From: Antitrichia curtipendula
Lineage: Eukaryota; Streptophyta; Bryopsida; Hypnales; Leucodontaceae
NCBI GenBank assembly: GCA_951230915.1
Contig: OX579637.1
Location: 18,228,001 to 18,292,000, forward strand
Length of the DNA stretch: 64,000 nt
Reading direction: 5' to 3'
This document shows, piece by piece, positions 26,382 to 62,195 of this stretch. Position numbers and translations under genes: made by a program. Each line of letters starts with the position of its first letter. The first letter of the stretch is position 1. The notes beneath the pieces were generated by a model that was given only the letters and a program-made list of their open reading frames with translations, did not search any database and was not told where the DNA came from.

Positions 26382-26883
26382 TTATCTTTAGATCGAGGAT
26401 AAACATACTCAACTCGAAGATGTTTATCTTCGGACCAAGGATAAATATGCTGGACTAAAAGGTAATTGTCGTAGGATCGAGCATGTTTATCCTCGACCCC
26501 AAGATAATTATCTTCGAGTCAAGGATACTCATCCTCTCATAAATTATGAAATTAAAATGAGCCAAAATAGCATAAAAACATTCTAAACATATATCACATA
26601 ACCAACATTATCCTCAACTTGAAGATAAATATACCCGACTGTAGCATTATGTACTAATCACAGGCGACAGTGAACCACAAAGAATGATGTAACTATCTTT
26701 GGGCCGAGGATAATTATCCTTGGACCAAAGATAAACACCAAAGTGACAGTCCACCAAAAGGACAGAATTCACTAAAACAAATTCATAAATAACAAACATA
26801 GAGAGAGACAAGCTAACTAAAATAATTATTCATATTGTACACATCGACAAACACAAAGAGGATTATCCTTGGCATGAAGATAC
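26382..26883. repeat. Array of 21 bp palindromes, arm TTATCCTCGA type (Q1)
   Basis: Eight 21 bp sites of form TTATC(C/T)T(C/T)(G/A)(A/G), one base, and the approximate reverse complement. They start at 26,382, 26,424, 26,487, 26,508, 26,608, 26,693, 26,714 and 26,863. The 26,487/26,508 and 26,693/26,714 pairs abut with exactly 21 bp phase. They lie in the intron-like region just upstream of the first Q1 exon. Confidence 0.85.
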
Positions 26884-27033
26884 TTTCAGCCAATGCAAGC
26901 TCTAGGCTCCTAATATAATTCACACTGCAATGGTAAATAGATGTGAAGGTAGATGGTACAATTACTTTGGACTTAAGATAATCCTACACAAAATTGCTAA
27001 CTTGATCTATCAGTCTACGCAAATATTCTTCAA

Positions 27034-28447
27034 AATGGCTGTGGTGAAGAAATACAACTACTCAGCCATTGCCCTGTTACTTGAGCCATTCAGCAAATGG
27101 ACGGCGGAGGAGCCATTCATATCCGACATGCCAGAGCTCTACGGCCAGCTTTGGCAATTCAAGCCCATTGTGGATTTTTGAACCTTCGGAAGAAATCGGT
27201 CTTAGGACTATGTCCTTCTACGCCACAAGGTGAAGGATTCAGGAATATACATGAACTGGAACCTAGACAAGAAGGTCACCCTCGTGGAGCACCATCAAGA
27301 TAAATTCATTGTCCTAATACTCTATGCATGTGATCGACCTAGAAAGGAAACAAACCACACCTACTCTACTATCTTGCATGAGGAAGATGATATGGGAACG
27401 TTTGATCTTGATAATCTCATAAGTAATTTACATGAAGGGAACCACGATGCGCTGGCGGATGAGTTCCAACGAAGATTCCATCCCTGGATTTGTAAAAATG
27501 CCATCTTCATGGCAAAAAGGATTGGATACATGTTTAGCACATTGAAGGAGTATGCTAAAGACCATATAGACAAACAACCTCATCACGACATGGGTTGTGG
27601 CCAAGTGAGGCGCGAAGCAGACCTTAAGACAAGGTCAATTTTGGGAACTCGTGGCCGAACTAGGAGCAGAGGGAGTGGAAGGGGAACAACGCGAGCCTAG
27701 CTCCCTAAAAAAAAGAATCCCAAAACAAAGATCGTTGAGGCAAGTGAGAAGCACCAAAAACCCGTGACAGATAGTCAGCTTGCAACTGTTGGAAGTTTAG
27801 GCTTCACGCTTACAAACGTTCATACATGGAAGACGAGCGTCTATGAGTCCATCAAGAAATTTGAAGTGGTAGGCGCATACCAAAAAGATTTATAGGACAA
27901 GCACGCATCTTGCTTCATTTTTGATCCTATGACATTCAAAGTGAACATCTCCAAATGCCATCTTGCCCCTCCAAGATACATCATTCAGAAATTAGAGATG
28001 AAGATTGTGGAAGAAATAAAAGAGATCCTTGTCCATCTTGGGTCCGTCCAACAAAGGGAGTTAGTATGCCTGACTCCAACTGACGCCAACAGAAGGCTCC
28101 TCAAAGAATGTCCTTTGAACTGGGATGACATTAAGGACGGGAATTTCCTTATTATTAATGGCCAACATAGCATCACTACCTCCAAGATGCTGCAAAGTGA
28201 CGGATGTTGCAAGTCCTGAAAGGTGGAGTTGCAGACGTAGGATGCAACAATCGTCTATACGCTTGACGCAAGGAAGCTGACAGAAATTTTCAAGTGGTAC
28301 AACTCCACGTTAATAGTTAGTCGACATGGGGGAACCAGATTTCAGCTTGCAAGCAAGTATGGAGGAACTCAAGCAGACAACTAATGTTGAAAGAGAAGGA
28401 TTGGCCAAACAGAACAATGCCATCTTCAATGCAATTGTTTACAAGGT
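27034..28447 (+). pseudogene. Q1 element protein, N-terminal part with ParB-like motif
   Basis: Starts MAVVKKYNYSAIALLL at 27,034; the frame then shifts twice within 27,180-27,235 and continues as KDSGIYMNWNLDKKVTL to a basic Arg/Gly-rich stretch (GTRGRTRSRGSGRGTTRA) at 27,700. From ~27,770 another stretch reads TFKVNISKCHLAPPRYIIQK, then ELVCLTPTDANRRLLKECPL and NFLIINGQHSITTSKML near 28,145-28,190. The (I/D)NGQHS block after a preceding proline-leucine motif resembles the DGQHR/GxxRxxA region of ParB/sulfiredoxin-fold domains. This is a motif-level resemblance only. The exon end FNAIVYK is followed by a GT donor at 28,447. Many stops and shifts make this a pseudogene. Upstream is the Q1 palindrome array. 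Confidence 0.5.
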
Positions 28448-28464
28448 ATGCAATGCCTGTTTGT

Positions 28465-28591
28465 TTATCTTTGAGGCGAAGATAATTTGTGGTTAATATT
28501 GATTTGTAATGGTGCATAGCTTCTATCGTGTAATGTATTTGTATAACACTGGCAAAGGACATGACTATGTTTATCCTCGGGTCGAGGATAA
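28465..28591. repeat. Two 21 bp palindromes inside a Q1 intron
   Basis: Sites at 28,465-28,485 (arm TTATCTTTGA) and 28,571-28,591 (arm TTATCCTCGG), after the GT donor at 28,447 and before the next conserved exon at ~28,690. Confidence 0.85.
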
Positions 28592-28689
28592 TTTGCTCTG
28601 CCTCATGATCACTTATTGTCTCGGAATTGACGGTTGTTTCAATGACAATATTGCCTTGCAAGAATTTGTAGATGTTGTGTTGATACTAC

Positions 28690-29460
28690 ATTGTAGCATG
28701 AACCCAGACAAAGAAGGTGCTAAGGTGAAACTTGCGTCAGACGTCAAGAATGAAATTAGAATCATTACATTGGCAAACAAGACGTACCAGTTGTGGGAAG
28801 AGTTTCTCCGGAAACACACTGACGGAGAACTGGTTGATCCTATAACATGCACTGCGTACAACAAGTCCATGAATAACTTCAATCCCAAGAACTTCTCACT
28901 AAAGAGAGAGTTCTTCAAGCACATGGGGCATTTCACGAACAAGGACCTTAAAGAATATGTCCTCCATTTGCTTGGAAGAACTAAACAATGCACCCGTGGT
29001 TACCCGAAAGTCTTCGTGGATGCTGCAGGGATCTTGTCCATGGACAACTATAAGGCCGAGCACTGGGTGGAGCATAGGAAGCGCAAGAAAATTGTCATGA
29101 AGGAGTTTATGGCCCTCGACAAGTCCTTGAAGTTTAGGGACTCACAAGGAAAAGTGATCGATGAGGTCTAAAGGAAATGGAAGCGCACGAACAAGGTCAG
29201 TTTTGATTTGTGGGATTTTCTCCTCACTTCCCTACCCAATTCTTTTTTTGTGAAGCGTCTAACAAACGAAGCAAAAAAGAAGGCGGCCGTAGATTATAAG
29301 GACCACCCGAAATTGTCTGTGGTCTATCCCATCTTCAAGAGTTTCTTGAAGATGAAGAAGGAAGTCAATTCAACTTAGAGGCATCCAAAAAGTTTGCAAA
29401 TTCGCGGCTCAAGGAGTATGAGATCAAAGTGTCCACGTATTAGCCTAGCAAAGCTGAGAG
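28690..29460 (+). pseudogene. Q1 element protein, conserved central domain
   Basis: The reading frame to 29,171 contains the block shared by all Q copies: KNEIRIITLANKTYQ, GELVDPITC, LKREFFKHMG, a DLKEYVLHLLG segment, a GILSMDNYKAEHWVEHRKRK segment and a final KEFMALDKSL. The same order is seen at 58,560-57,814 (GELMDPDT, EFFKWLG, HILHQE, EWVKRWKRK, KRELHLVDSTL) and, decayed, at 36.1-35.8 kb. The function is unknown; I recognise no named domain. The charged, helical pattern ending in a WV..RKRK basic cluster would suit DNA or RNA binding. Beyond the stop at 29,171 further lysine-rich pieces (KKAAVDYKDHPKLS, FKSFLKMKKEV) suggest more coding with breaks. Confidence 0.6.
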
Positions 29461-29461
29461 G

Positions 29462-30370
29462 TTGGACAACACCACGACACAAGCCATGCCTTCCGTGGTG
29501 AAGCTTGTATTTGTGTTGAAGAAAGGAATCGACGGCGAGCCCAAAAATCTGGATGCTGTGAAGAGGGTTTACTCCACGGACAAAATCCCTTACTACAAAG
29601 AATTCCAGAAAAATACAGAGGCCAAGTATAGGATCCACCCCAACGAGCTGAGGATGGAGTTTTTCAGAGAATATCATCAGCATTTACACGGGGTCAAAGT
29701 TTATGATTGCTACAAAGGTCAAATTCTATCTCTCGCTATCCATTATCCTCGAGCCAAAGATAACAATTGATGTTAGGTTGTTATCTTTGGTTCGAGGATA
29801 ACCATCCAAGATCAACAGTTAGCATTGGTTGTGGAATAGGATTTGAATATCAATGTGGATCTCCTAAACGTTTTCATATATCAAATCTTGCCACAAATTA
29901 CTCATCATTTATTTTTGACACGAAGATAACCATGCTGGAATTTAGCTCTGCAATTTAATGTAAGAATTGGGTACTAATTTGTCGTGGTGGTCTTGCAGAT
30001 ATATGGCCTATTTTATTATGGAATTACCGAGCGGGATTCATCTGAGAAGCATCGGGAGATGGCAAAGTATGACAGTTCCTTGGACATTAACAACTCTTGC
30101 AATGAGAATTTGCCTTACCTTCTAGATTATGAACGTCCAAGCAACCTAGCAACTCCGGACTTGAATTCTGAGTCCATGCCGTCAAGAGTGCGAACCGTGG
30201 AATCCTCAAGGAGGGAAACCAAATTCATTGGTGACAATGGTGCTTTGGAACTTGGGATTAATGAGTTTGGGACAAAATACCAAGATGGTCGGCTGCAACA
30301 ACTTGGATGTTATTGGAGGCAATGTCTAGGTGATGAATTAATGGCCGGAATTGAACCCTCTAGGAGCTGA
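29462..30370 (+). pseudogene. Q1 element protein, further exons
   Basis: Two frames, 29,462-29,742 (TQAMPSVVKLVFVLKKGIDG ... RMEFFREYHQHL) and 29,998-30,370 (IYGLFYYGITERDSSEKHRE ... KYQDGRLQQLGCYWRQC), separated by ~240 bp carrying three Q1 palindromes. This looks like two exons and an intron (acceptor TCTTGCAG just before 29,999). No named domain recognised; charged, no membrane segments. Confidence 0.4.
29743..29929. repeat. Three 21 bp palindromes in a Q1 intron
   Basis: At 29,743-29,763, 29,781-29,801 and 29,909-29,929 (arms TTATCCTCGA, TTATCTTTGG, TTATTTTTGA). Confidence 0.85.
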
Positions 30371-31430
30371 GAAAGTAGCAGAGGATACGGAGCAGGTGGA
30401 GGTGATGGCAGCGGTAGAGAAGAAGAATAGAAAGAAGGCCAAGAAGCCCATTAAGGAGATAGTGGCCATACACAATCTGAGTGACCTCAAGGAGTCCTAC
30501 TAAGATCTAAATGACATTGACTACGGGGATTCGGAGGTTGACGCATAGGGGTTGTCAAGTGGCAACCATGAAGTGGAATCAGCTCTGGAGCTGCGACATG
30601 GGCTTGCTGCAGAGTCTGTTGTCCATCTAGTTTAGGGTCAAATACTTCAGCTTCCGGTGAAGCAAAAGAACAGGGACTTCTGGAAGGAACGACATCAAAG
30701 AAAACGCTTTGAAGCGGGCAGAAGAGGAAGGCAAATGGGCAGCGAAGTAGTTGGAGAAGAAATTGTTGAAGGCGGAACTTGAGAAACTCCAAAAAGAGAA
30801 TGTCTCTCTCAAGACAATGGTGTAGGATCTGTCTGTCTCTTGATCTCTTCAACAGATTAGTTCTACATCCCCACAAGCCTCCATTTAGATGTCAGCTTCC
30901 GCCAACACCCAGCATTATCTTCAAGGCAAAGATAATGCTACTTCACCTCAGGCCCATGCTTAGCAAACAACCTCGGCCAATACCCCGGAGGATCTTCGAG
31001 TTAAAGATAATGATGTCTCTCATCCTACCTTGGATGAGGACAGTACTATACAAACGCCTGCTGAACCGACACTATCCGATGTTCAAAGAGTGGAACAGAG
31101 ATTTGACGAGATCTTGTCCTCTACAACTGTACTAGCAGGACTCAAACTTCATATAGCATATCTTCAATGCAAGGATAATTTAATTGGCCTGTTGATATTG
31201 GACTCCAAGGGGAGTCAGTGTTGGAGACGCAAGAGGAAGATGAGATTGCTGCGGAACTGGTACCCCTTGTATATGCCTCTTCGGTCCATATGATAGTGGT
31301 TGAATTCAAGAATCCGCTTGACGAAGAGGAGAGTGTGGACTACATGGGTTACATAGACGAAGACACGTCCAACATGGATTTTGGTCAGGTACAGTCTCTA
31401 GCATCTTCAGACCCCTACAATTATTCATGA
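30371..31430 (+). pseudogene. Q1 element protein, coiled-coil region
   Basis: Read in pieces: EVMAAVEKKNRKKAKKPIKE, then a long heptad-like stretch (LEKKLLKAELEKLQKENVSL) near 30,740-30,815, then a Ser/Thr-rich linker and TLSDVQRVEQRFDEILSST near 31,070-31,125, and an acidic end (MGYIDEDTSNMDFGQ). Within this stretch five stops stand where CAG or a similar codon is expected (for example AAK-TAG-LEKK), consistent with CAG to TAG change. Three Q1-type palindromes lie inside it (30,915, 30,990, 31,158), so either they were inserted in coding DNA or part of this is intron. Confidence 0.4.
30915..31178. repeat. Three Q1-type 21 bp palindromes
   Basis: At 30,915-30,935, 30,990-31,010 and ~31,158-31,178; arms TTATCTTCAA, GGATCTTCGA, ATATCTTCAA. 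Less perfect than the upstream array. Confidence 0.7.
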
Positions 31431-32039
31431 ATCTATCAATTGGGAAGCATCTTTAGATCCCTATGATTATTCATGAGTCTGTCCATTGGGATGTAATGGA
31501 TGTTTGTGTTGTGGATTTCTCATGAAGGATCTTTTATGTCGATTCATTCTGATTGACAGGAGGGAATGGGCAGTCTCTGATTGTTTGGCGTCGACAAACT
31601 GTACTCTATGACTTTGTCTTGTAGAATAGTGTGGATACTTGAGCGAAGTGTAGTGAATACTTTAACCAAATTGGATAGTAACTCATCAAAATCGGTAGAC
31701 CGGATGTATCTTAATTTCTTAAGAAATAAATATACGGGACACTATTCTTTAGTGAATTTCATGTCTAATAGATTCATTTTGACCATATTTATACTCAGTG
31801 CAAAAAAAATAAAAGTGTGCTTTGATTGTTGTCACTCAAATTACCTCTTAGTAGAGGGATTTTGCAGTCGTTTAGTGAGGTTAAGTGCTATTCGCCATTT
31901 TATGGGTCACCTGATTCCGCATTCCAACAGGTAACTACATCTCTTTTTTGTTTTATTTGATCAGGGAGTAGCAAGGGGGTGCAGAGAGAGAGTGTCGCGG
32001 AGTGTGTCCATGTTAGTTCCTCAACTGCGGCAGAAGTGA

Positions 32040-32807
32040 TTGAATGTTATATTTGATTTGAACAGAGTATTGTGTGAGTGCTTGTTTCAAAGGCCAAATT
32101 TGAAACAATGGCATCACACAGTGCACGATAATATATTCTCCAATCGAATCCCTACTATCATTGAGCCAAAGGCCGTCTTTGTTCGCCCCAACTTGAAGAA
32201 ATTCTTAGACGAGCTTTCTAGGATCTTGAATTGCATTGTAGTCTGGAGCTCCATGTTGAAGAAGACTATGGAATCTGTCACTGATTTCCTATTCCGAAAC
32301 AGTAAGGCGCCATTCAATATCCTAGGCCAAGATAAGTGCAGGATGATAGAAGTCTCTAAGCAAAAATATCTTAAACAAGCTGGGAGCCTTTAGAAGATAT
32401 TGCTTCTCAAAGTGCTTGAAGAGCAATTGTTCCTAGACCTTGATGATCCAACATCCTTCAACAAGGACAATATTCTTCTCATCGACGACTCTCCACAAAA
32501 GAGCGTCCTCAATGAGAACGGGAATGCAATATTCCTTGAGAGTTGGAATCATGAGATGCGTGGGGACAAAGTATTGTTGGGTATTTTGGGTCCGTGGTTG
32601 AGGCGACTTTATGAGGTATGTGCATTGGGTTGCTTGCACAAGTTCGTTGATGCAAACCGCATTGGCGTGCCCCCCTTGTCTGTTGAGTCCTATCTTGCGG
32701 ATGGAGTGTTAGGCGGCATGAAGGAGTCCGCCAATAATTTTGGGTCCCATTTTGTCTTGCTGGGGATGAAACTAGTGATTGAGTCGAAGAGATATAGGAA
32801 GAAGTAG
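32040..32807 (+). pseudogene. FCP1/NLI-type HAD phosphatase-like protein of Q1
   Basis: Homologous to 254-946. Reads NVIFDLNRVLCEC at 32,043, KAVFVRPNLKKFLDEL, VVWSSMLKKTMESV near 32,240, LGQDKC near 32,325. After a TAG at 32,391-32,393 the same frame continues LLLKVLEEQLFLDLDD, ILLIDDSPQKSVLNENGN near 32,474 and LLGILGPWLRRLYE. Motif I is DLN rather than DxD, as in the other copy, while the distal DD pair is kept. The position equivalent to the ATG is TTG, so either the start is lost or this is an internal exon. It lies at the 3' side of the Q1 coiled-coil region. An active phosphatase is unlikely as written. Confidence 0.65.
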
Positions 32808-32945
32808 ACTTCTCCATGTATTGGTCAATTGTAGAAAGCGTTGTACATAGTGTGAATACAAATTTTTATATAAATTTCATTCATGGGTATTAGTAAGATT
32901 TTAAAGTTTGATTTTATTTTAATTCCATATTTTTTCTATGTTGAG

Positions 32946-33086
32946 TTATCTTTGGGTTAAGGACAAATTGTGATCTTTGAGATTTTGTTCTCTTTGGTTG
33001 GAGAATAATTATAGAGGCTTTGTTTTTATCAATGAATTGAAGATATTAATTGTGCAAGTAGTTTGTTATCTTTGGACCAAGGATAA
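32946..33086. repeat. Three Q1-type 21 bp palindromes downstream of the FCP1-like exon
   Basis: At 32,946-32,966, 32,988-33,008 and 33,066-33,086 (arms TTATCTTTGG, TTCTCTTTGG, TTATCTTTGG). They precede the next conserved-looking frame at ~33,122 (acceptor TTTTTTCAG), again intron-like. Confidence 0.8.
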
Positions 33087-33121
33087 ATTGTGTCAGGGTT
33101 ATGTACTCTCTGTTTTTTTCA

Positions 33122-35399: not shown

Positions 35400-37140
35400 C
35401 TAAGAAATTGAGGAAGTAGAAGCACTATGCAGGGCTATTTCTTTGTTAATGATTAATGGAATATTCCAAAAGCCAAGCATCTCTAGCTTGAGGGAGCTCT
35501 TCATCAATTCGTACCACACTTGATTGCCCCAGCCCCTATCATTTCTACCTTGGAGTCATAGGGTCTCAGAAATGCCCTAGCCTTTGGCTTCTTATACTTG
35601 CTTCTAGGGAAATTTTGAAAAGTTCTTCAATATAGAGCAAAAGCTCTTGATAGCTCTTGTTTTTGTTCAAAGGTCTTTAGACTTGTGAAAAAATTCTTCT
35701 TTTGAAACCATAAAGAGAAGTTGCTTCATGGCCTTTGTGATGATATAGTTCCTCTTGAAATCCTTTCATGCCTTCCTACAATAACTTCTTTTTTAGTCAA
35801 AGAAGGCCAAACTACGCTTCTTAAGCCAAAAAACTTCTTCATAGGCTACTTTGTCTTTATCTGCTCTAGCCATTGTTTTGCGTTGTAGTCCACAATGCCT
35901 CCCAATACCTTCTTGATGGTCATCTTTGGATGAAAGTGAGTCCTATTTGGCATTTCTGTTTAAGATGTGGAATGCCACTTTTATGAGATTAGCCTCAGTG
36001 GTGTTCCTCAACCACTTGAAGAACTTAGGGCTAATTACCCCGTCCTTCTGTTGGTTCGAAATCTTGTATCCTTCAATAGAATTAATGTTTTACTTGCTTA
36101 TCCGTCAATTATAGCAAAGCAATTTTACATGGCCGCGTAGAACTCTATACACTTTTAATATGCATATTATTATAGAAAAAATTCAAGTCAAATCAACTTA
36201 AACAAAGAAGCTTACCATCCACTTCTAGTCAACACTTGTATCCATCATCATCTTTGGCTTTAGTTCTAGAAGTGATTCACTTTGATATAGAACGCTGATG
36301 TTGGCCAAATGATCTTGCGTACTTGTTCCAACCTAAATAGCACTCTTAGGCCTTGAACTTTTTGTACTTTGCCTTATTTACATGAAATGTCTTTATCATT
36401 TTGGATGCTTTCACGTTCTGCTACCTGTTTACCATCCATAATTTCCTAGACCTTATATCTTTGAAGTCTTTAGTCCGCTTAGTTAGATTTCAAGGCATCA
36501 TGCATAGTGTCATTATTTTGCTTGGATTAGGTTTCTCGAGATAATATTTGAGAGTTGATTGCATGCCTTTCTCTTCAAGGCAACAGATGTTCAGTTTTGT
36601 TAAAAAGGACTCCACTTGGTCAATCAAGATTAAATATGTTTGGTCAATCCTCCAATGTACAATTCCGTGCAGAATGACTAATATTCCTTGTAAATCTTTC
36701 TCGATTCCTCGTAGTTTAGCTCTTCATTACTCCCCTATGTGTCCCTAAAGACAGCTATGATTGCTAAGGCCATATTGTCTTCTTCTAATTCCTTTGTTTC
36801 TTCGTTGATAGCAGCCTTTCTCCAAGTTTTTTTAATTTTCAAGGGACTTTATAGGCCTAATTTTTGTCCGTCTCTTAAAGTGGTCTTCCATCTTGTCTAG
36901 CTCTTTCCTATCTCGATTGTTTCATTCACGTGAGACTTGTAGCTTGCACCCACTTTTGTGTACTCTCTAGAGATTGAAAGGAGCTTCATGTTCTTTGCCT
37001 TCTCTTTTATTTTCTCTTTCTCATTATCAAACCTCTTTAGAAAATTGTATAGTTGAGACCAAAGGACCGGATGGCTCAGGGTCCTCCATCTTTGGTCACC
37101 CATCTTTTCTCCTCAATGTATTTGATTGAGACCCCTTTAC
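35400..37140 (-). pseudogene. Q-family element protein, decayed (Q3)
   Basis: On the minus strand the block at ~36,080-35,850 reads VISPKFFKWLRN, NLIKVAFHILNRN and, one frame over, GGIVDYNAKQWLEQIK. This matches the FFK.(L/M)G ... H.L ... AEHWVEHRK order of Q1 and Q2. Upstream (37,103-36,900) a frame reads RWRTLSHPVLWSQLYNFLKR, SREYTKVGASYKSHVNETIE. Near 36,700-36,540 it reads LYIGGL..HI / LIDQVESFLTKLNICCLEEK in other frames. There are many stops and shifts. Palindromes of the TTCAACTTGA type occupy the upstream side (37.57-38.11 kb), as in the other elements. Confidence 0.5.
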
Positions 37141-37569
37141 AAACCTATAAAAAAACAAATTCTCTTAGCTCCAGCAAGTCATTGATGGTGTCCTTTAAAG
37201 GTACAACATAGGAGAACATGCATTCTTCTTTTTGATCTGAATAGATCGTCTTGTACAAGACAATAAACATATTGCCAAAACCAATCTTTATTTATGTGCC
37301 AATCTTGTATAAGGAAATTGGTAGTGTTTCTAAACACTCTTTCTACTTGGTTTTAAGACTAAGGTGGCCAAACATTGGGGTTAGGGCGATGCTCCAACAC
37401 TCTCCTGCTTCTGGATCTTTTCATGTCCATCATTTGCCAAAGATGAACTCATCTTTGTAGTCCCTTGGGCCTTGAGTTCTCATCACCCTCAATCAAAAAG
37501 CGCCTAAAGTTTACATGGACTTTTGTCTTTTGCTTCTCCATATCTGCATATATCGACTACTTTGTAAGT

Positions 37570-38109
37570 TTCAAGTCAATTTGACTTGTATAAGTCAATG
37601 TGATTATGAATCAGGTTTCCATCTATCAAGTCAATTCAAATTTAATGGTCTTATTCTAGTTCTTTGCTTATGTCAAAGTGGAATTCAAACCTATACAACT
37701 TGAATGACATTGAAAGATTCACTTTGATGTTACTACTTATCTAAAGTAGTATCAATTTTATCTGACTAGGAAGGAGCCATTCAAACTGATTTGAGTTGAG
37801 TTGATAACAATATTTCAGTTTAATTCAAAGGACAAAAAGGAAGGATCTCAAGTCGATACAACTTTAATTGAACTAGAAAGTCAAGTTGTCTATCTACAAA
37901 AAAAATTTATGTTTTTCTTACATTTTTTTATTCCACTCAACTTGAGTCAAGTTGATTAATATGTAAGGGAAGGGTTTCATCTCATCACTACAGAGTATAA
38001 AGGAATCGTTTTTAGAAATGGATTCAAGTTGTATTGACTTGATTTTTCTCAATCATTTGTTTTGTGCTTATGAAATTTTTTTAATCTAGTCAACTTGATT
38101 CCAGTTGAA
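37570..38109. repeat. 21 bp palindromes, arm TTCAACTTGA type, upstream of Q3
   Basis: Sites at 37,570-37,590, 37,780-37,800, 37,936-37,956, 38,022-38,042 and 38,089-38,109; all 21 bp with one centre base. The best is CTCAACTTGA-G-TCAAGTTGAT. More half-sites occur to ~38,300 (TTTGAGTTGAATTGATTTCA). The arms equal the P1/P2 type (TTCAGCTCGA) with CpG changed to TpG/CpA. Confidence 0.75.
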
Positions 38110-38309
38110 TGGAGTATCTTCTATAGATGGATTCACCTACTAATTCCTATTGCGGTTTCTTCTAAACATGAATTGTTTCTGCTAATTTAACTCAATGCGA
38201 GATAAATTACCTTTTTTGTTTTTTTTGTATTGTGTATGAGCATTACAAAGGTGGTATCAACTTGAACTGGCTTTGAGTTGAATTGATTTCAAGTAGATTG
38301 GACTTCTTC

Positions 38310-48119: not shown

Positions 48120-50429
48120 TCAAAACCAAAAAATACAAACTATCTAAACTTATTTTCAAATACTATAAAGTGTATCTAGAATACCTCATACATGCTAAAT
48201 CATAATTGTATAAAGACAAACTTCCATTGATAACAACAATCTAAGCTGAAGGAATTCAAAGAACACATTCTATTGTGCTCTTCTTGACCTTGGACCTCCA
48301 TGCTGTGATGCGAGAATTTGTATCCTTTCATATTGGATCTTGGGTCTTGACACATTAACAAATTCAATGGTAATTTTATTGCATAAATATAGATGATTTT
48401 ACATGATTTTATATTATATGTTGTAGAATAGATGGTGTACATTGGACTATATGATTGGCTTTTATAGATTTGTGTTGGAACTACTTCTCTATATTTTATG
48501 TAGTCACTTGCGTAGCAAGTGTACTTAATTTTTGTCTTTAGTATATTTAAAATTACATTATAAATGTGATATTATGTATGTTGGCATCATTTCATTATTT
48601 ATTCACTTTGTAACTAAATGTCTTTTCAAAATAGACTACAAGTTGAAAAAAAAAGTACTGGGTAGGCCTACTTTTTAATTTGTTAATGTGTTAAGCACTT
48701 GTTACAATTTTGGATAGGAAGGCCAATTGGTTGTTAAAATTTTTTTTCTTGCAAAGTTCATTGAGTAGCACCAAATTATGCATATCTCATAGTTGCTCAT
48801 ACAAATTCAATACTAATTCAACTCGGACCACCTAAATGAAATAAATAGCTTCTTACAACCAACTGTTTAGCTCATAACTTGGTAATCAATAAAGACCATT
48901 CATTGCATTTATATGGAAAATCACTATTATAACCCTAATCCATAATCTATACAGAATGTTCAAAATACCTGAAATTGTCATTTTAATGAAAATTGCAGCT
49001 AACAACTGAAAAATTGAGTTCTCTTCAATTTAAATTTATTTCAACTCTACTTCAATTTTTGGAGTATAAAAATAGATAGTCTTATTTTGGGACGTCCCAA
49101 ATCTTTTAAAATAATAAATGTGATGTTACAAAATTTGTCCTCAAAATACATGGTATATTTATTTAGAAATTATCCGTCAATGGATAATTTAGTGGTTTGG
49201 AAACCCTTTGAAGTACATAAAAGCACAAATTAAATTTTATGATGACTATTGTCCTTATGAATTTGAAGTACTAAAAATATCTACAATTTTTTTCTTTGTC
49301 TTTGTCATCCAAATGTCATGGCCTTTTTAGAGTTTTTTAGGGCTGGTATATTTACAAAGTTGTTGAAATTACTGTACTGAAGTACACTATAAGGTTTAAT
49401 TTCTTTTGGAACTCCTTGTAAATTTTAAAAAATAGCAGTCACATAAATTTTTTGCTTATAAAATCTAAGTCTGTGAACTATTTACAATTTTTCCATTCTT
49501 TTTTCAAATTTAGGTTACATAAAGAATTAGTTAGTTCAATTTTTTTATATTAGTTTTAATACCAATTTATGGCTTTTTTGAATTGGATTCTCTTAATCAC
49601 AAGGTTTATAAATTAAAAAAATTCATGTTGCATTTCTTAGAGAAAATAAAAATTTAAAATAAAATTTAAGAGTTTTAAATATATTAACTGACAAGTTTGA
49701 TGTATTTTGAACCTAAATTGTAAACCCAAATCTTACATTGGAAACCCTAGCTTTTCACCTTAAATCTTTTTTTTAAAAACTAGTTCCTCAAACTTTTTAA
49801 AACATGTGTCAAGTTATCAATTCAATTTTTTTTTGGATGATTACTAGGAGAAGAAAATAGACAATTATGTTTTAAGAGAAAACCAATTTAATTTGTTGCA
49901 CAAATCTATTAGCCCTTTCATTTTTATATAGCAAAAATACACTTGGAGAGGCATAGGCACTTTAGTTAGTGGACTTATTTGATCTACAATGTCGACGTGA
50001 AGGTATATCTCCATACTAAATTTTTAAGTACTACTACTACTCCTTGAGATGTACTTGAAGAAATCAAAAAGTAGGAGCCCAAAGCTTCAATATCAATATG
50101 AATGTATAATACCTTTAAGTACTACTTAAATTTGAATATATAACCAAATGGCACTGTGATTGTCTACTCCATACATTGGAAGAAAGTTAACTTGAAAAGC
50201 TCTTAAATTCCAAATTTGCTTTGTTAAACTTCATTACTTTGGGATTACTTTTGTAGTAGATGTTTGCAAAGCTAATTTATAAAAGCTAGTTTTTTTGCAA
50301 ATTCAACATGTAGTGTAGAGTGATTTTGAAGTTTGTAAAGTAGTAGTTTGTAGTTCCACAAAGAGGGGAGAAGAGATGTCGGATGCCGAGAGTTGTGGTG
50401 AGAGTTGTGTCTCTAATGTCATGCATTTG
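48120..50429. other. AT-rich non-coding tract, nothing recognised
   Basis: Short overlapping frames only; no match to repeats elsewhere in the window noticed. Confidence 0.4.
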
Positions 50430-50736: not shown

Positions 50737-50987
50737 GATATAAAATGTTATATTCAATAAACCAAGAGGATGGGGCCCTCTCAAAATAATATTGTTCATT
50801 TAGACCCTTATGAATGAATTTAAATTTTGGCCAATTCAGATCGCTGAACAATACACTTATTGATTCAAAAGTGTAATTTCCATTATAATGAGAGTAACTA
50901 TCATGAACTAGAAGATTCCAGTACATTTAGTTCTGTGTAATAATCTAGTTTCGACTCATATAAGTGAAGATCGTATTCTCTGTGTAA

Positions 50988-51535: not shown

Positions 51536-54375
51536 TCAAGTGTACGAAGCGAGACTTTGGTTGATGACTTCAATTTGAATTGTCGGAATTTTGATCATGT
51601 ATTGTATAGTCTTTGCTCTGATCTGAGACCTCCACACTATCATCAAAGTGTCTGTATGCTCCCAAAGCGGCGGTTCAGTTTCATCAACCTTCCAGCACAA
51701 ACCTCTTTTACTATCCCATCCCATATAGTTGTCTTGAACATCCTGGTTCCTTGATGTTGGACGAAAATATTGAAGAAGGACACAATTTGGTTTCTCTGGA
51801 TTACAATTTGGATCCGACAATGCCCTTGCAATCCAAACTGGCCGATTAGCACCATCCGTCGGACAAATTGCAACAAAGTAGTTTTTATAAAGATCCTGAC
51901 CCACCCTAAAGGATGGTTGTGGGCGACCTCGCAGAGGTCCGACGTATGCATCATCCTCTCCAAAGTCTTCACGCACCTCACCATCTTCAGCTAACTCATC
52001 CTCTGGCGCTGCTTGAATACGGGTCATGGGCCAGAAACCGTCGTTCAAAACCGTAGAGGTAGACAAAGGATCTTGCATTGCTACCTTCAAATCACGCCAA
52101 TAATGCACCAAGTGCTCATACAATCTTCGATATTCTCCAGTGCGGTCTTGATTGCACAGATTCTCCCAATACTTAACAAACCCAGACATACCCTGGAGGA
52201 TGTCATCTTGACCTCTCATTGGACTTGGCAAGATTGCCAAAGGCACTCTACGAGGCTACAAACTTTCACCTTGAGAATCTTCTTGCCACAATTTAAGACC
52301 TCCGCCTACACCTTTTGGTAACCAGTCTAGATCAGTGTACAGGAGTTTGTATTTCATGACTGGGACTCCATCTAAATCAAGGTAGAACTTCACTTGTTGC
52401 GGCCTTGTATGTCCAACCATGATATCACCACCGTCAAAGAACTTTTCTGCAATGAAACCCTTAAAATCGGGCACCTCTTCAATAAGATGAGGGATGGTGG
52501 GAATGGACTCTACATCCATGAATGACTTCATGAGTGCAAGTATAGTAGAAAAGCTCTCCTTCTTCAAAAGCATGCTCCATCTTCCAAATAATGCATCGAT
52601 GTTGTCATGAGTGTGACCTACAATCATGAAGTTCACATACACTTCTTGGAAGATCTTGTTTGTAACAAGTAGAGACCAATAACAGAAGACGTATCGATTC
52701 TTGTTGTCTCTAGTGGCATTGTCCATCTGCACATTGAGAATGGGCGGTAATGGCGTTCCTGGCACCAAAATCTCAGGCGGAAGGGGGAGTGCCGCTACAC
52801 ACAATTGAGCACCCCCAAGTACTTTCTCAAATAAAGTTGTGGACTTTGAATTCACAAATAATTGCCGAGAAGAATATTTTGGCGGCAATTCCAAATCCCG
52901 CAACAACTTTGCCATAGAACTAATGGTGTAATTGAATCGTGGAGAAAAATATCCAAATCGTAATACACATATCAAACATTAGCATGATTGTGCGCAATCA
53001 TGCCAGTCACTGAAACAAGCAACTTGACAAGGCCATCAAGGTCTATACTCTTGTGGGAGAAGACAGGAGAAGTAGTTTTAGCATGGTCCATCTTGTCATG
53101 CATGATTGTCAAACATTCATGCGGAAAATTATGTGACCGATAACGATTTGCATAATAGAGCTCCCTATATGCTCGAGCAATAGCCAGATGTTTTTCAAGC
53201 AACATTTGCCACTTCAAAGCAGATTGAGATCTAGCAATTGCACCCTTCAGAAGTTCACGATATTTGTCACACGTAGCACAACGAGCAAAGTTATCTCCGG
53301 GTTTCTTCACATCGTACTCCGAGAACTTGGAGGACCTGATCTTGCTCAAGTTTGAAGTAGAAATGCCTTTCAACCCAAATGCTGCGTTGGCATCGTTAAT
53401 TTTTGAAATTTGATCTTTCCATTGGAAAGTAGCCGGGAGAATCATTGATACAACCTTGTCTCTTGAATTGAGGGTACAAGTATGATGTGGCATGTGATCT
53501 GCCTCCTTCCCAAGGATACATTTCAAGGTAGCAGCTGCTTATTCTATGTGTTTTCTTGGCTTCACCAAGCCCAAATTACCATGGTCTCTTGCTTCTCGAC
53601 CATCCTTCCAATAAGCAAGGTAGCGATAGAATGTAGCCTCGGGGACACCAGAAATATGCATCCATGCCCGCATGCATACGTCTATTTTTTCAGTGGTCAC
53701 CATCTTCCTACCACGTTCATCGTAATGAACTGACCTGTGCACATTAGTCTTCATGTGGGCTCTGAATTTGAATGTTGATCTGTTATACATCCGTTCGCAG
53801 AGGACCCAAATCTTCTCCCTTGGAAATGGTTGAACACAATTCTTATGACAGCAGACTTTGCTGGACACCGCATTGATAGACTCTTGGCTAAGGAGCTCCT
53901 TTGCATTAAGGTTAGCTTCACGAGGAGGATTCCGGACGGCACTTGAATACGCATGAGAGGACATCGAGGAGGATGGATTCAAGCAACGTGCTTGGAGATG
54001 ATTAAAAGCATTCCGTGCTTCATGGTCTCGAAGATTAGCTCCACAGCAATGGATGAGCTCAATTGGCCATGCCCGTAGTGAATATATCCACTCTTCGGAT
54101 ACATCCATCTCCAAATGAGTCTTTGAAATGTGAACTCCAACATGAGTATCACTGCGAGGACCATTTGCACCCAGCACAAGGTCCGAGTTGATGCTATGGC
54201 AGGTACCCTCACCAACAAGCACGCCGTCAGCATTATAGAGAGTGACACATCTTGTATTCCACGAGCAATGAGGAATGCCTTCGCAATCCAGGACGTTAGC
54301 AATCAAGACATGAGGCACCTCATCTTCATTGTCAGAGTCGCTCAAGTTGACACCATCATTCATTGTGGAAGCCAT
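51536..54375 (-). pseudogene. DUF7869-type putative transposase, near full length (P1)
   Basis: Minus strand, ATG at 54,375 (MASTMNDGVNLSDSDNEDEV) to 51,536, about 945 codons. In order: an acidic N-terminus; a Cys-rich segment (VSSKVCCHKNCVQPFPREKI, about 53,870-53,810); a possible helix-turn-helix (ISGVPEATFYRYLAYWKDGR, ~53,600); CARCATCDKY-like cysteines (53,270); HECLTIMHDKMDHAKT; the conserved core ILNVQMDNATRDNKNRYVF (52,740) to IVGHTHDNIDALFGRW (52,580); and a C-terminal domain with PVWIARALSDPN and WEHTDTLMIVW. Defects are a TAA at 53,539 (P2 has Gln), a TGA at 52,972 (P2 has Arg), a frameshift near 52,920 and a TAG at 52,256. The GHTH..D and DNA motifs suggest a nuclease-like fold, but the activity is inferred, not known. 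The 5' side carries the palindrome array and a leader-like region. Confidence 0.8.
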
Positions 54376-54446
54376 TCAAGATACCTGCCCACAGAAATCC
54401 ACATATACAGGTAAGTAAAAAGACAGAAAGTATTTACACCATTCAC

Positions 54447-55409
54447 CAGCTCAAATCAAGCTGAAGCATACATCAATGCAAATAACACTTATCCTCTAAA
54501 ATCTAGAAAGAAAATAACATCATCTATATGTAACTCAGAAATGTCAAGCTTGTACAGAATGTTCTCAAGCATTTAAATATCCATGTCAAAGTATATCAGC
54601 TCGATTCGAGTTGATCTATGCCAAGTGTAACACCCACAAGTCCAATGAGGAGTATTCAGTCCAGCACTAAGAATTCATTATTAAATATATAGTATAAATG
54701 GTTCTCCTTACAAAACCACACCAATCCGTGCAAATCAAGCTGATCAAAGTCATATGCAAAAACGAACCCAGAAATATATTCTTAATGGTCTCAAAACATA
54801 ATTACATATTCTAATAAGGTCAAGCTGAGATGAAGACGAGAAGATCTGTTCATAAATAGATCTGAAAAAAGAAGAAACCAGATATTACATTCTGATACTG
54901 GAATACACTGATTCAAGTCGAGTCGACCTGAATCATACACCAATGCAGATAACTCTTATCCTTTAAGACCTACGTAGAAAATGACATCAGGTATACATTC
55001 CGTAGAAGTGAATATTCCGTACAGATAGTCCCCACAAACAAGGACATCCATGTCAAGGTAGATCAGCTCGAATCGAGCTGAACCAAATCAAGTGGGTCAC
55101 TCACACCACTGAAAAGTACTCAGTATGACTCTCAGAGTCCATTATAGATATATAATGGAAATGGTCCTTCTCATACGACCCTACCAATCAGCTCAAATTG
55201 AGATGATTAGAGTCGTAGGAGGAATATATTAAAGGGGGTAATTGTTTCATTCCTTAAAGTAAAATTCAATCAATTAATTCAGATTGAATCGAGCTGAAGA
55301 TGGACAGAGTACTGTTGTCGGCCACCCATAATTAATTCAGCTCAAATCGAGTTGAAATTACTATATTGTCTTACTGGGCTCCAGAGATTCAGGTCGAATC
55401 GAGCTGAAC
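54447..55409. repeat. Array of 21 bp palindromes, arm TTCAGCTCGA/TTCAGGTCGA type, upstream of P1
   Basis: About ten sites, including 54,447, 54,594-54,614, 54,911-54,931 (ATTCAAGTCGA / TCGACCTGAAT), 55,062-55,082 (TCAGCTCGA-A-TCGAGCTGA, perfect), 55,188, 55,279, 55,337 and 55,389-55,409. Part of the array is a ~469 bp direct duplication: ATCCATGTCAAAGTATATCA near 54,580 recurs as ATCCATGTCAAGGTAGATCA near 55,048, with flanking blocks in the same order. It lies between the P1 start codon and the leader-like region at 55.56-55.99 kb, probably within a 5' intron. Confidence 0.85.
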
Positions 55410-55990: not shown

Positions 55991-55999
55991 ACATTAGTA

Positions 56000-57200
56000 G
56001 CAGAGGATCTTAAATTAGAAGACCAGGGGATCACGATATACAAAGCCACTGTACCACCAAAAATAGGCAAAAGAATGTAGGGAAAAGTTAGACAAGGAAC
56101 AGTTGTCAGATTCTTGAAACTTTAAAAACAAAAATAAAAATTATAAAAGAATTCAACGATAAAGAAAAGCAGTTTACGTTGCACTTCCGGTTAAATTAAG
56201 GTATTCTTTCTACGCTGAAATTTTTTACGGTTAATAATTCTTCCATAAATTCCAATAAATAATCCACTCTTCAGTCCTAAAACCACTACACGTATAGAAC
56301 CTTCTCCAAAATTTAGAACATCAAAAAATGATATCTTTAACTACTATAAAAAAAAATTGCAATTCATAAATAGAGTTTGAATGTACATTTTAGAATTCAT
56401 CCATACACTTACACTTAAGGTTTTAGATTTCATTGTAGTTCAGGAAATTAAAACATCGGCAATTTTATGAAAATGGTCAAATTTCTTAACTTTTGCAATT
56501 TTGAGAGTTCAAAGCGGGTGGTCTAAAATGTACAACAGCCCTAGATAACTAAAACCTATACCATCTCAAGATATCTAAGAACTACAATAGTCATAGATAA
56601 CATTATATTCATTAAAATGAGAGGTTTCCACTGAATTGGGAGGTGTTGAGACCAAGTAATTGACCTATATTGCATCAAAATATAGTAGATATTAGCGTGA
56701 GACAATTAACTAGTACCACTAACAAGTACGTGGCTGCCTATATAGTATGAAGAAGGGGACACAAGATTCATGCAATTGTGTCTTTCCAATTACACTTGAT
56801 TGTTTTATACAGTTGTGGGATATTATCCGACGTAAACGCCTTGTAAACTTTTTTCACAGTGTTGGTAATTACTGTGAGTGTGATTCACTGCAGCATGGCA
56901 ATGTATGTAATATGTGCAGATAGCTTGTGTACCTCTAGACTATGACTACCATATGAGCATCTCCTATATGTACGACTTACTCTTGAGCTTTTCCATGGCC
57001 TTCCTAATCTCTGGTCCGCGGTTGTATCCATTACTAGCTTGCTTGTACTTCCGTCGTGCCTGTTGCCTCTGTAGTTCTAAGAACTTTTGATCTTACTGGT
57101 CAAAAAATGGAGAAACGCAACTCTTGGTCGCCACTCCGTTGTGCGTTTTGGTCTTTCTTACTCCCAGGGAAAGAGGTCGTGGCCAAGGAATTGAAGGCAC
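56000..57200. other. Spacer between P1 leader and Q2, nothing recognised
   Basis: AT-rich to ~56,900, then mixed composition; no conserved frame or repeat seen. Confidence 0.35.
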
Positions 57201-57206
57201 GTCAGA

Positions 57207-57632
57207 CTAGATAGCAACCTTCTCTTTGCACAATTCATGTGGCACTTCTAACACTGGTGACAACGCTAACACTGGTGACATGGCGTTCCCGTACAATTTC
57301 CTCTGTGGTGCTCTGTCGAAGGACGACGGTGACATCTGCGAAGCGAAAACACCTCTAGACTTTAATGGAGAAGGGGAGGAAGATTTAGGCAGACGAGGAG
57401 TTTCACTCGGAGGACTATCTACCACACCATCCTCGAGAGGCCTAGCAGAATAATCCATCGTAGAATTAGTTGTTGCCGTCGAGCAAAGGAAGTTCCCTGT
57501 ACTTAGAATTGCGTTTTGCCCATAGTCTAGAATGGAATCAACTGACGCCGTACATGTGAGGTTGGCATTCAAGAACGGAGACGGAGAAAAATGCAAATTC
57601 TGAGAACAACACATAGTAAGATACATTATCAC
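57207..57632 (-). CDS. Ser/Pro-rich element protein (Q2), homologous to 1225-1875
   Basis: Minus strand. Conserved blocks DSILDYGQ, AILSTGNFLCS, NSTMDYS, LEDGVVDSPP, PRLPKSSSPSPLKSR and RKLYG match the plus-strand frame at 1225 in order. The similarity begins near 57,545, so the N-terminal 30 residues of the open frame are probably not part of the protein and an upstream exon is likely. It ends in KEKVAI, stop at 57,207. Function unknown. It follows the Q2 central domain after only ~180 bp, whereas in the other copies the FCP1-like exon stands before it, so that exon appears deleted here. Confidence 0.5.
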   Translation of the reverse strand: MIMYLTMCCSQNLHFSPSPFLNANLTCTASVDSILDYGQNAILSTGNFLCSTATTNSTMDYSARPLEDGVVDSPPSETPRLPKSSSPSPLKSRGVFASQMSPSSFDRAPQRKLYGNAMSPVLALSPVLEVPHELCKEKVAI

Positions 57633-57813
57633 TCGAGGTCAACAGAGCAAATTCAATAAACAAATGCAATCTCAAAATATTCAAGGCAAATGCAGCAGAC
57701 CATAATAGACAGTAAGAACTCAAAAACCATATCGATATATTTTATTTCACGAAATATGTAGATACAAAGCAGAACAAGTACGTGAGTTAGTACGTCAGAT
57801 ACTGTCTAAACTA

Positions 57814-58560
57814 TCAGGTCATTGGCGGGACGAAGTTATTCCTGCGTTCAAGAAACACCTTGAAAAATTGGGCCACGTACGGTGACGTTTCCTCCGCGGA
57901 TTTGTTCTTCGCTCTTGGTTGCTTGGCTTCTGCCCAGTAATCGTCTCCAGGTTGTTCGAGAAGAACGTTCTTCGTGGCACTCGTGAAGTTTCGACTTTTC
58001 TTGAATTGCCTCCACTTCTCCACGTTCAACTCGTCCACGGCATTCATTAGTCCCAGTGTCGAGTCCACGAGGTGTAGTTCCCTCTTCACAAGGTATTTCC
58101 GCTTCCAGCGCTTGACCCACTCCTTGCATGTGTAGCAGCTTTCAAGCACCCCCGTGATGAGTTTTATTGTCACCTTAAGATACTTCTTGTTCTTCCTTCC
58201 TGGCTCTTGGTGGAGGATATGCTTGGCCAGCTTCGTCAGGTCATACAATGAAAGATTGCCAAGCCACTTGAAGAATTCGTAGGTCAAGTTTCCGTTCTCT
58301 GGCTTCCAACTTGGTTTCACGTTGAACTTCATGCGGGTGTCTGGGTCCATGAGCTCCCCATGTGCTGCGCTTGATATCACTTTGCTCTAGAGGCTGAAGA
58401 CTTCATCAGGAGCGGTGATAATCTTGAGCTTGTTCACAATCTTGAGCTTTTCCTCCGCGTCTTTGCCTTTCGCTGCCTTCTGGGCTTTAACGACATCAAG
58501 GCATCAAGCATAGCAAAGCGCTTGAACATTGCCAAGGAGAATTCCTGAATGATTGAGAAG
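57814..58560 (-). pseudogene. Q-family element protein, central domain (Q2)
   Basis: Minus strand. From an acceptor-like TCATTCAG at ~58,550 the protein reads KAQKAAKGKDAEEKLKIVNK and LKIITAPDEVFSL, a TAG at 58,388, then KVISSAAHGELMDPDTRMKF, LTYEFFKWLGNLSLYDLTKL, AKHILHQEPGRKNKKYLKVT, then EWVKRWKRKYLVKRELHLVD and NVLLEQPGDDYWAEAKQPRA to the stop at 57,814. It is clearly homologous to Q1 28,690-29,171 and better preserved (188 uninterrupted codons). Basic, helical, unnamed domain. The neighbour downstream is the Ser/Pro-rich protein. P2 lies divergently ~3.7 kb away. Confidence 0.6.
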
Positions 58561-58599
58561 CATCACAAATGAGTTAGGCTTACGGAATACGCAATGCAC

Positions 58600-60350: not shown

Positions 60351-60364
60351 TTTGGTTGTACAGA

Positions 60365-60630
60365 AAATACTAAGCCCTATACCCTAAATCCTAAAATAAA
60401 ACCCTAAAGCCTGAACTTGTACCCTAAATTTTGTACCCTAACGTTTATAAAAATGTCTAAATCCTAAACCCTAAACCCTAAATCCCTAAACCTTAACGTT
60501 TGAAAGATCTCAAAATCCCATACCCACTATCCTAAACCCATACCATAACGTTTATAAAAATCACCAAACTCATAACTTTAAAACCCTAAATCTTATCGTT
60601 TCAAAAAAATATCCAAACCCTAAACCCTAA
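60365..60630. repeat. Interstitial telomere-like tract
   Basis: Many CCCTAAA, CCTAAACCCTAAACCCTAAA, TACCCTAAA and CCCATACC variants, with a recurring AACGTTTATAAAAAT spacer (four times). The perfect CCTAAACCCTAAACCC run is at about 60,465-60,480. Plant-type telomere repeat in degenerate internal form. Confidence 0.7.
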
Positions 60631-60878
60631 AGTTTGCAGAAAAATGAAGGAATGAAAAATTAAGAAAATCACAGTTCGAAGGTGGGGCTAAGCGAGGGGG
60701 TCAATTCACTTTGGCCCTCCGGAAGGCCATTCTCACATTTGATTCTAGTGGAACAACTTTAAATAATAATTAAATAATTCAACCCCCCTCCCTTTACGCC
60801 GCGTTGTGTTTGTGTGTCATTATTTTATAGAAATCGAATCTACCAAAGCATACAGCTTACTAAATTCAGTAGTCTACA

Positions 60879-61534
60879 TTAATGGCAGCAGCTGTGCATG
60901 TGGTGGATACCGCAAATAATAGGGTATGCATCCAAGTCCAAGTACATGCCCGTGACTTTATGCATGACGCGTGTGTTCTCAAAAATTCTGTACTCTGCTT
61001 CCCGCCCTCCTATCCCCGCCAAGAAATTCTTGGATGTGGCCCTCATCTGGGTTAGGACTTTATCTTTCACATTCGCTAGACTCTGCACCTCCTAGCGGAA
61101 GCTGTCTTTGTATGTTGTCACTTTTTTCAGCATTGTTATTGAGAGTCATTCGAGTATTGTGCGTGCAGGCTGTTTGGTTATTCAGACATTCAATGAACAG
61201 GTGCTTGGACTCTCAGTTCGTCTTCGACGACCCTATAGCTGTTCCCTAAGATTTCCATTCCATCAGTGACTGTCATAACGAGAAGGATGTATACTTGAAA
61301 TCGTGCGCATGATATGTTTAGCGTAGTAGGTCGATGCTCCTGTGTTGTACGGAGATGGTCCTTAGTGATTGCATTAGATCGACTGAATGTGCCGTGAAGC
61401 ACTGAAGCAACATTTGTGAATGAGGTCCCGGTATTACCGCCGTAAAATACGGAATAGGAAATAAGTGCTTCATGAACCAATACCTCCGTAAAGCCCAGAG
61501 ACATTTGGGTCAAAGCGACTTGAATGCTAAACAA
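60879..61534 (-). pseudogene. Unrecognised reading frames divergent from P2
   Basis: Two minus frames. 61,534-61,190 (114 aa, MFSIQVALTQMSLGF, hydrophobic VLVHEALISYSVFYGG, TGTSFTNVASVL) has some membrane-protein character. 61,088-60,879 (69 aa, KDKVLTQMRATSKNFLAGIG ... MYLDLDAYPIICG) follows in the same orientation. The ~100 bp between is broken by stops. They share the 61.58-62.2 kb palindrome array with P2 as a possible two-way promoter. No family recognised. Confidence 0.3.
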
Positions 61535-61580
61535 GATAATGTAATCCTTCCATTTATGATCCAGACGGGGGTATTGTATT

Positions 61581-62195
61581 TTCAGGTCGGTCCGACCTAA
61601 ATGGATCCGAATATTATACTACTAAAATAAGAAGCTTACCTCATCAGTTTAGGTCGGTTCGATCTGAAACGGCAAACGATAGTTTCCTGGTGAAATTAGG
61701 TTTTATTATCTCTCGAGTGGATCGTCTAGAGTTTTGTTTGTTTTCGTGTTCTATGTTGTTTGTAATCAGTATTAGGTCGACTCGACATAAATGGTTTGTA
61801 TTGAATTTATGTCATTCACTTCAATTCTAGCATACTTGTGGCATCTGTTGTAGGGAATTTATGTATAATGAGCTTATGAATATCATTCGCTGGAGTTGAA
61901 TTTGGAGTCAGTGATGAACTTAATTTAGGTCGACTCGACCTGATGGTGAAACTGCAAAGGTCTGCAAAAGTCTTAGTCATGTGCTATTATCGAGAATATT
62001 AGTCCAAAAATTCAGTTTGCTTTTGGGTAATATCATTCAAATCGAGTCGACCTGATTAGTAGTGATGAAGGTGGATTTACTAATTACTTATACATTACAT
62101 TCACTGTAATACATTTGCACTTTATTGGTCACAAATATGATATTTTCCTCCTCCAAGATAGTTACATTTTATGACTGTTATGGTCAAGTCGACCT
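61581..62195. repeat. Array of 21 bp palindromes, arm TTCAGGTCGA type, upstream of P2
   Basis: Six sites: 61,581-61,601 (TTCAGGTCGG), 61,648-61,669 (TTTAGGTCGG), 61,772-61,791 (TTAGGTCGA), 61,924-61,944 (TTTAGGTCGA-C-TCGACCTGAT), 62,035-62,055 (ATTCAAATCGA), and a half-decayed one at ~62,182-62,195 (GGTCAAGTCGACC). It ends ~80 bp before the P2 start codon. Confidence 0.85.

Follow-up and report, generated by a model that had tools for sequence, protein, structure and literature searches.

Short palindromes of one common build lie in the non-coding DNA of mobile elements in the moss Antitrichia curtipendula. We analysed a 64-kb stretch (the window) at 18.228-18.292 Mb of the 37.2-Mb contig OX579637.1, in a genome of 400 Mb; coordinates are in window numbering, and negative values lie to the left of the window. 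It carries copies of two genes, here called P and Q, which are divergently arranged within a single element whose ends are inverted repeats. The palindromes are 21 bp long (a 10-bp arm, one centre base, and a 10-bp arm; 10-1-10). Their arms differ between element lineages, yet the P and Q sides of one element agree, and in two unlike repeat arrays the 21-mer is preserved in units that have otherwise diverged. We consider it probable that these palindromes are dimer sites of an element-encoded protein, which would act on the genes of its own element.

Palindromic sites in the window and beyond

A preliminary description of this DNA had reported about 45 palindromes of the 10-1-10 build around the P and Q genes. 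They are present, and we list 52 of them (18 around Q1, 12 at Q3, five at P3, ten at P1, and seven at P2), given here without strand:

26382..26528, 5' array of Q1, seven contiguous 21-bp units with four clear sites (26382, 26424, 26487, 26508)
26608..26883, Q1-type sites (TTATCYTYGR) 5' of Q1 (26608, 26693, 26714, 26863)
28465..29929, Q1-type sites between coding blocks (28465, 28571) and at or after the end of the second block (29743, 29781, 29909)
30915..31178, Q1-type sites (30915, 30990, 31158)
32946..33086, Q1-type sites 3' of the NIF domain (32946, 33066)
36182..38282, Q3-side sites, TTCAASTCGA (decayed) (36182, 37570, 37625, 37684, 37694, 37780, 37847, 37936, 38023, 38089, 38186, 38262)
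45029..45659, P3 5' sites, weak in the de novo search alone (45029, 45089, 45244, 45420, 45639)
54445..55408, P1 5' sites, arm TTCAGCTCGA (54445, 54595, 54724, 54814, 54912, 55062, 55187, 55278, 55336, 55388)
61504..62198, P2 5' sites, TTYAGGTCGA (61504, 61581, 61648, 61771, 61924, 62036, 62178)

The seven units of the Q1 array stand head to tail in a 21-bp register; among shifts of 10-63, the self-identity of the array exceeded 0.36 at 21, 42, and 63 only. The Q3 sites at 37684 and 37694 overlap, and eight of the ten P1 sites lie on a duplication of about 467 bp. The arm types named across the lineages are TTTAGCTCGA, TTCAGCTCGA, TTTAGCGCGA, and TTATCCTCGA. The information dropped 11 bp from the centre at Q1, P1, and P2; the arm edge was less clean at Q3, P3, and a separate contig, L001 (see below), in which the arms reach about 13 bp. 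The inner TCGA, described earlier as shared, is not present throughout, as one P-Q pair outside the window had GCGA. The sites are mostly non-coding and 5' of genes or intronic, as had been claimed (the Q1 sites at 28465 and 28571 are probably in an intron), but they also occur 3' of genes, and the three Q1 sites at 30915, 30990, and 31158 may be inside coding sequence. An asymmetry of the Q1 sites at arm position 6 (C on one side and T on the other in 13 of 18, 9 expected, p=0.07) is not claimed.

The palindrome-constrained de novo search covered 5' and intron regions, with six shuffles per region. The log-likelihood ratio was 138 at P1 5' (shuffle maximum 40), 93 at P2 5' (43), 125 at Q1 5' (38), 138 in the rest of Q1 (59), and 104 at Q3 (51), and the four strong clusters reached 2.0 to 3.5 times the shuffle maximum. 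P3 alone was weak (65 against 60); its cluster is supported because the motif is common to P3 and Q3. The Q1 sites had a negative mean score under all P-type matrices, and vice versa, and leave-one-out assignment placed 45 of 56 sites in their own cluster, with seven of the 11 errors falling between Q3 and P3, which share a motif. Window matches above 11 nats were all in P/Q regions outside the P genes, with none in the reversed-sequence controls; below 11 nats, the Q3/P3 matrix yielded control matches.

Element-specific arms had been claimed for these groups, but part of the arm difference of P3/Q3 (TTGA/TCAA for TCGA) looks like CpG decay, that is, age, because the inner CG is nearly lost there (kept in 3 of 34 half-sites at Q3/P3, 10 of 20 at P1, and 12 of 14 at P2) and the local CpG ratio is low (0.37-0.40 at Q3/P3, 0.99 at P2). 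Decay of the inner TCGA predicts methylation at these sites. Arm position 5 is A in 33 of 34 Q3/P3 half-sites; CpG decay does not account for this A, because 26 of the 34 retain C at position 3, which has the same CAG context.

The build is wider than had been claimed and was also found at P and Q loci in a 200-kb flank and on L001. By strict search, the window and flank together (264 kb) contain 13 P loci and six Q loci, with a NIF remnant and Q3 in addition. Window-trained matrices gave 8, 26, 18, and 20 matches (overlapping) in the flank against 0, 0, 0, and 2 in the reversed 264 kb. The matrix count in the flank, for which two of the matrices (Pd and Qb) had been trained on sequence from the flank itself, was 83 sites; 66 of them lay within 1.5 kb of a P or Q segment, where 35% of the positions are, and two, both single, lay more than 5 kb away. 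Two 30-kb stretches without P or Q on other contigs had no site. Equal density away from P and Q, which the preliminary description had named as adverse to its proposal, was thus not observed.

Eight of the 13 P loci had matches in the 1.5 kb immediately 5' of the coding segment that could be detected. De novo searches of such 1.5-kb stretches, with three shuffles for controls, recovered the same build with arms particular to each lineage. Outside the window, recovery was clear at Pc, Pd, Pe, Pf, Qa, and Qb (83-286 against shuffle maxima of 43-63) and weak at Qd (58 against 47) and Pj (56 against 43). Detectable P segments start at residue 311 in Pc, 171 in Pb, 151 in Pf, 756 in Pg, and 266 in Ph; as these fall short of the N-terminus, some of the tested 5' stretches may include undetected coding sequence. 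A site cluster 3.6-4.4 kb from Pc repeats the Pc 5' region in inverted orientation. This duplication is at L018:3340-7586 (window -56660 to -52414), and a Q-side end motif lies 2.7 kb further.

When prokaryote genomes were scanned, a single relative of P was found, on the 4.3-kb contig L001, which is filed under a cyanobacterial metagenome-assembled genome and is probably mis-binned moss DNA. L001 has an open (intact) DUF7869-type P frame at 595-3417 and TTTAGCTCGANTCGAGCTAAA-type sites at 34, 114, and 489 (5' of P) and at 3573, 3750, 3821, and 4071 (3'), with no site above 7 nats within the P gene. The P1+P2 matrix found five sites on L001 (mean 0.035 in 200 shuffles), and the L001 matrix found ten sites in the window, all in P/Q flanks (mean 0.23 in 30 shuffles).

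Arm sequences and preservation of the sites

The proposed covariation of arms with element lineage held for three sister pairs of P and for all three linked P-Q pairs; as a general correlation it was weak, and one locus (Pf) did not fit, as weighed below. Among eight P-side profiles, the Q-side arms were nearest to those of their own linked P in three of three cases (Qb to Pd, Qd to P1, and Q3 to P3), the arms of Qd being mixed and its margin small (distance 0.27 to P1, 0.30 to Pj, and 0.36 to P2). Qa, the partner of which (Pa) is almost without sites of its own, was nearest to P2, the sister of Pa, with a node support of just 0.47. Arms are also shared within the sister pairs P1/Pj, P3/Pc, and P2/Pa (permutation p=0.001, post hoc, as the pairs were chosen after the tree was seen), Pa being represented by the sites between Qa and Pa. 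The TTATC arm type is common to Q1 and Pe, both of which are divergent in protein: Q1 stands at 24-27% to Qa, Qb, and Qd (40-46% among themselves), and Pe at 21-34% to the other P except the fragment Ph.

The sites could instead be bound by a host transcription factor family that drives the elements. A palindrome in a promoter is a normal transcription-factor site, and many lineages are just one or two arm bases apart; however, lineage arms differ by up to at least three bases in one genome while the P and Q sides agree, and the 60 kb without P or Q had no sites. We regard a host factor as unlikely.

The DNA around the sites is far less alike. When the sites were masked, the flanks hardly aligned: five of seven pairs exceeded the shuffles by 1 to 9 points (for example, 31 against 24 for P1/Pj and 32 against 23 for Pe/Q1), and two did not. 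The array of Pd has 17 units of 58 bp and that of Qb 13 units of about 100 bp; the units barely align (25 against a shuffle maximum of 22), whereas the 21-mer consensuses of the two arrays are one base apart. Uniformity was 0.89 (Pd) and 0.85 (Qb) in the 21-mer, 0.64 and 0.55 in the rest of the unit, and 0.68 and 0.66 in the best other 21-bp stretch; the units were taken by spacing and registered on the 21-mer, and small indels lower the outside value somewhat, which favours the 21-mer.

That many of the palindromes stand in tandem arrays is what would be expected if they were neutral by-products of tandem duplication, with no binder. We hold this to be improbable: the 21-mer outlasts the rest of the unit in both of these unlike arrays (although the registration favours it somewhat), build and arm are kept in flanks that barely align, and the sites recur on L001.

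Within sites, the half-sites did not covary beyond the consensus (p=0.61, 51 sites; p=0.06 for P1 alone). The sites are symmetric and their halves show no excess agreement, which therefore suggests a dimer reading two half-sites. The half-sites had been placed two helical turns apart; their centres are about one turn apart, and it is the whole site that measures two turns. Inverted repeats can also fold, and the palindromes might act as hairpins in RNA or single-stranded DNA, but hairpins are very improbable given the same lack of agreement between halves.

The two-gene element and its ends

The genes and the element ends recognised in the window are as follows:

197..1875, plus strand, 3' part of a Q gene (NIF domain 197-946 and the conserved block after it)
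2245..2274, minus strand, Q-side inverted-repeat end of Pd/Qb, the partner end being 17.7 kb left of the window
27119..32807, plus strand, Q1 gene remnant (block A 27119-28306, block B 28647-29800, NIF phosphatase-like domain 32040-32807), stop-broken
35670..37287, minus strand, Q3 remnant, colinear matches to blocks A and B, each weak
45883..48111, plus strand, P3, broken DUF7869-type gene
48974..49112, minus strand, P3-side element end module
50777..50895, plus strand, P1-side element end module, inner parts alone recognised
51539..54375, minus strand, P1, DUF7869 gene with at least two in-frame stops and one frameshift
56605..56664, plus strand, Q-side end of the P2/Q2 element, the other end being at about 65821, beyond the window
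57210..58494, minus strand, Q2 remnant (block B and the conserved block after it)
62252..64000, plus strand, P2, DUF7869-type gene with in-frame stops, continuing beyond the window end

In a Pfam scan of P, DUF7869 (PF25273) was the sole family (E 5.5e-33 for one window piece and 4.6e-42 for the relative P0005 from Ceratodon), and P did not qualify as a MULE-type transposase. Named proteins related to P come from the mosses Physcomitrium and Ceratodon, with one distant relative in a mollusc; scans of IMG/VR with P and with Q block B, and of PLSDB with P, gave no relative. The Q remnants consist of conserved blocks A and B, without a significant Pfam match, and a NIF phosphatase-like domain. 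By eye, block B had resembled a degenerate DNA methyltransferase and block A a ParB fold; both assignments were dropped, as Pfam and PDB profile searches gave nothing significant and, for block B, the model was poor (pLDDT 37). By its position, the Q part at 197..1875 would be the 3' part of Qb, the 5' part of which is left of the window.

Pd (minus strand) and Qb (plus strand) are divergent, and a 30-bp inverted repeat, at -17715 and +2274, marks the two ends of a 20-kb element with terminal inverted repeats (27 of 30 bp match; score 45 against a maximum of 35 in eight shuffles). Early searches for ends around Q1, P1, P3, and Q3 gave none, and the ends emerged through the Pd/Qb element. The end motif recurs, together with a conserved inner module, on the 3' side of Pa, Pc, Pd, P2, P3, and Pj, at a distance of 0.6-1.0 kb; 3' of P1, only its inner part was recognised. 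Related ends also lie beside other Q genes. Because the P2/Q2 ends fall inside the P1-Qd interval, which ends near 50.75 and 78.09 kb, the P2/Q2 element appears to be nested in the P1/Qd element. No convincing direct repeat that could be a target-site duplication was found at Pd/Qb, Pc, or P2/Q2.

A total of 28.4 kb of P coding sequence contained none of the 135 listed sites, and neither did seven P-side end modules (5.7 kb in all); inspection of the same list found none within 1 kb of four Q-side ends. Within Pd/Qb, 3.9-4.8 kb separate the sites from the P-side end, and 2.6-8.1 kb separate them from the Q-side end. Such a central position favours a role in controlling the genes of the element itself over a role in recognising its ends. 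The subterminal repeats of En/Spm (CACTA) elements, bound by TNPA, and the repeats of Ac/Ds are also element-specific motifs bound by an element protein, but they are at the ends, whereas the moss sites occupy the middle of the element, probable introns, and stretches 3' of genes. A CACTA-type array of the sites at the element ends was not observed; L001, the element ends of which are beyond the contig, does have sites 3' of P.

The arrangement bears directly on whether the sites are transposase-binding repeats for assembly of a transposition complex, as in subterminal repeat arrays. The predicted fold of P most closely resembles DDE integrases and transposases, L001 has sites some 150-650 bp 3' of P, and inverted-repeat arrays flank hAT genes in the same window. 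Nevertheless, the Pd/Qb sites are kilobases from both ends, the end modules and Q-side ends are free of sites, and symmetric sites lack a cleavage direction. We judge this explanation unlikely, although a little less so than a host factor.

Several other repeats were observed. GC-rich CGGACGG/CCGTCC inverted-repeat arrays at 5500-5700, 7714-8103 (65-bp tandem units), 11850-12200, and 16050-16520 flank hAT transposase open reading frames (ORFs) at 9174-11665 and RING-finger ORFs at 13018-15648, and are possibly subterminal arrays of other elements. A tandem array of six units of about 180 bp lies between Q3 and P3 (43098-44176), and a dispersed repeat is present in three copies about 80% alike, one of them inverted (2445-2959, 34399-34952, and 40902-41414). 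At L011:1468-2677 (window 145468-146677), Pi, the most divergent P (17-29% to the others), has a 54-bp tandem array on its 5' side.

Proposed recognition within the element and known systems

In the mechanism that we favour, a dimeric or paired sequence-specific DNA-binding protein of the element, either P or Q, would bind the palindromes in its own regulatory DNA, namely the intergenic region between the divergent P and Q, the probable introns, and the 3' flanks. Each lineage would keep its own arm spelling on the P and Q sides, the sites would multiply by tandem duplication, and the 21-bp register at Q1 would put the dimers on one face of the helix. The most likely effect would be that only copies of the same lineage are switched on or shielded from silencing.

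A number of observations weigh against this interpretation. The helix-turn-helix-like stretch and the Cys-rich N-terminus of P were seen by eye only, and the copies looked at are mostly stop-broken, including all three P genes of the window with their stops or frameshifts. Control windows often beat their shuffles: in the window search, ten of 12 did so, eight narrowly and two clearly (83 against 54 and 67 against 41), with motifs that are unrelated to the palindromes and reach at most 1.6 times the shuffle maximum; in the de novo search of 1.5-kb 5' stretches, 12 of 15 controls beat three shuffles, one of them clearly and with a different motif (81 against 39). In that search, the wider 5' stretch of P3 returned an AT-rich motif instead, and no motif of the palindromic build was found at Pa (in the 1.5 kb 5' of Pa itself), Pb, Pg, Ph, Pi, Q2, or Qe, although Qe has four matrix matches nearby. 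The array of Pi is not palindromic and is possibly a different recognition array. The Mantel test of arms against P was weak (r=0.47, p=0.033, n=10) and lost significance without one divergent locus, without Pa, or with CpG decay collapsed; Pf, a divergent protein (19-43%), has ordinary arms like those of L001. In the P1 duplication, the sites were not clearly better kept than the flank (58/84 against 225/377). The self-recognition proposed earlier stands as a pattern and not as a mechanism.

Repeated palindromic motifs in the non-coding DNA of plant transposons are known from the Sirevirus elements, which, unlike the elements studied here, are retrotransposons. To our knowledge, VANC is the main described case of a transposon finding and reopening its own copies by sequence. 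VANDAL elements of Arabidopsis are likewise plant DNA transposons with dense short lineage-specific motifs in their own upstream and intron non-coding DNA, multiplied by tandem repeats that evolve together (PMC5735166, PMC10398659). The VANC motifs printed there, YAGTATTAY and AGTTGTCC or AGTTGTAC, have 8-9 bases in one orientation (PMC5735166, PMC10398659), and "palindrom" is absent from the main text of PMC5735166 (text count 0). The moss motif, in contrast, is a 21-bp palindrome, and the proteins differ: P is DUF7869, and Q has a NIF domain. The likeness of layout that the preliminary description had drawn is borne out, and the proteins appear to be unrelated. A Pfam scan of 20 window ORFs, in which no VANC sequence was compared, reported no VANC-like family.

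The moss elements may have a self-recognition system of independent origin, unrelated to VANDAL, in which the arm is a lineage address and P or Q reopens its own kind; we put this forward tentatively, as a possibility somewhat short of an even chance. The address would then have been rewritten jointly across the P and Q sides of one element. A literature search gave no mention of DUF7869 and nothing joining VANDAL, moss, and anti-silencing, and among the papers listed by a broader one, none describes such a system, judged by title. If this is true, mosses would provide a second, unrelated case, and self-addressing by transposons would arise repeatedly. The symmetric site and a lineage code that is readable in many copies would, in addition, supply pairs of proteins and sites for decoding recognition.

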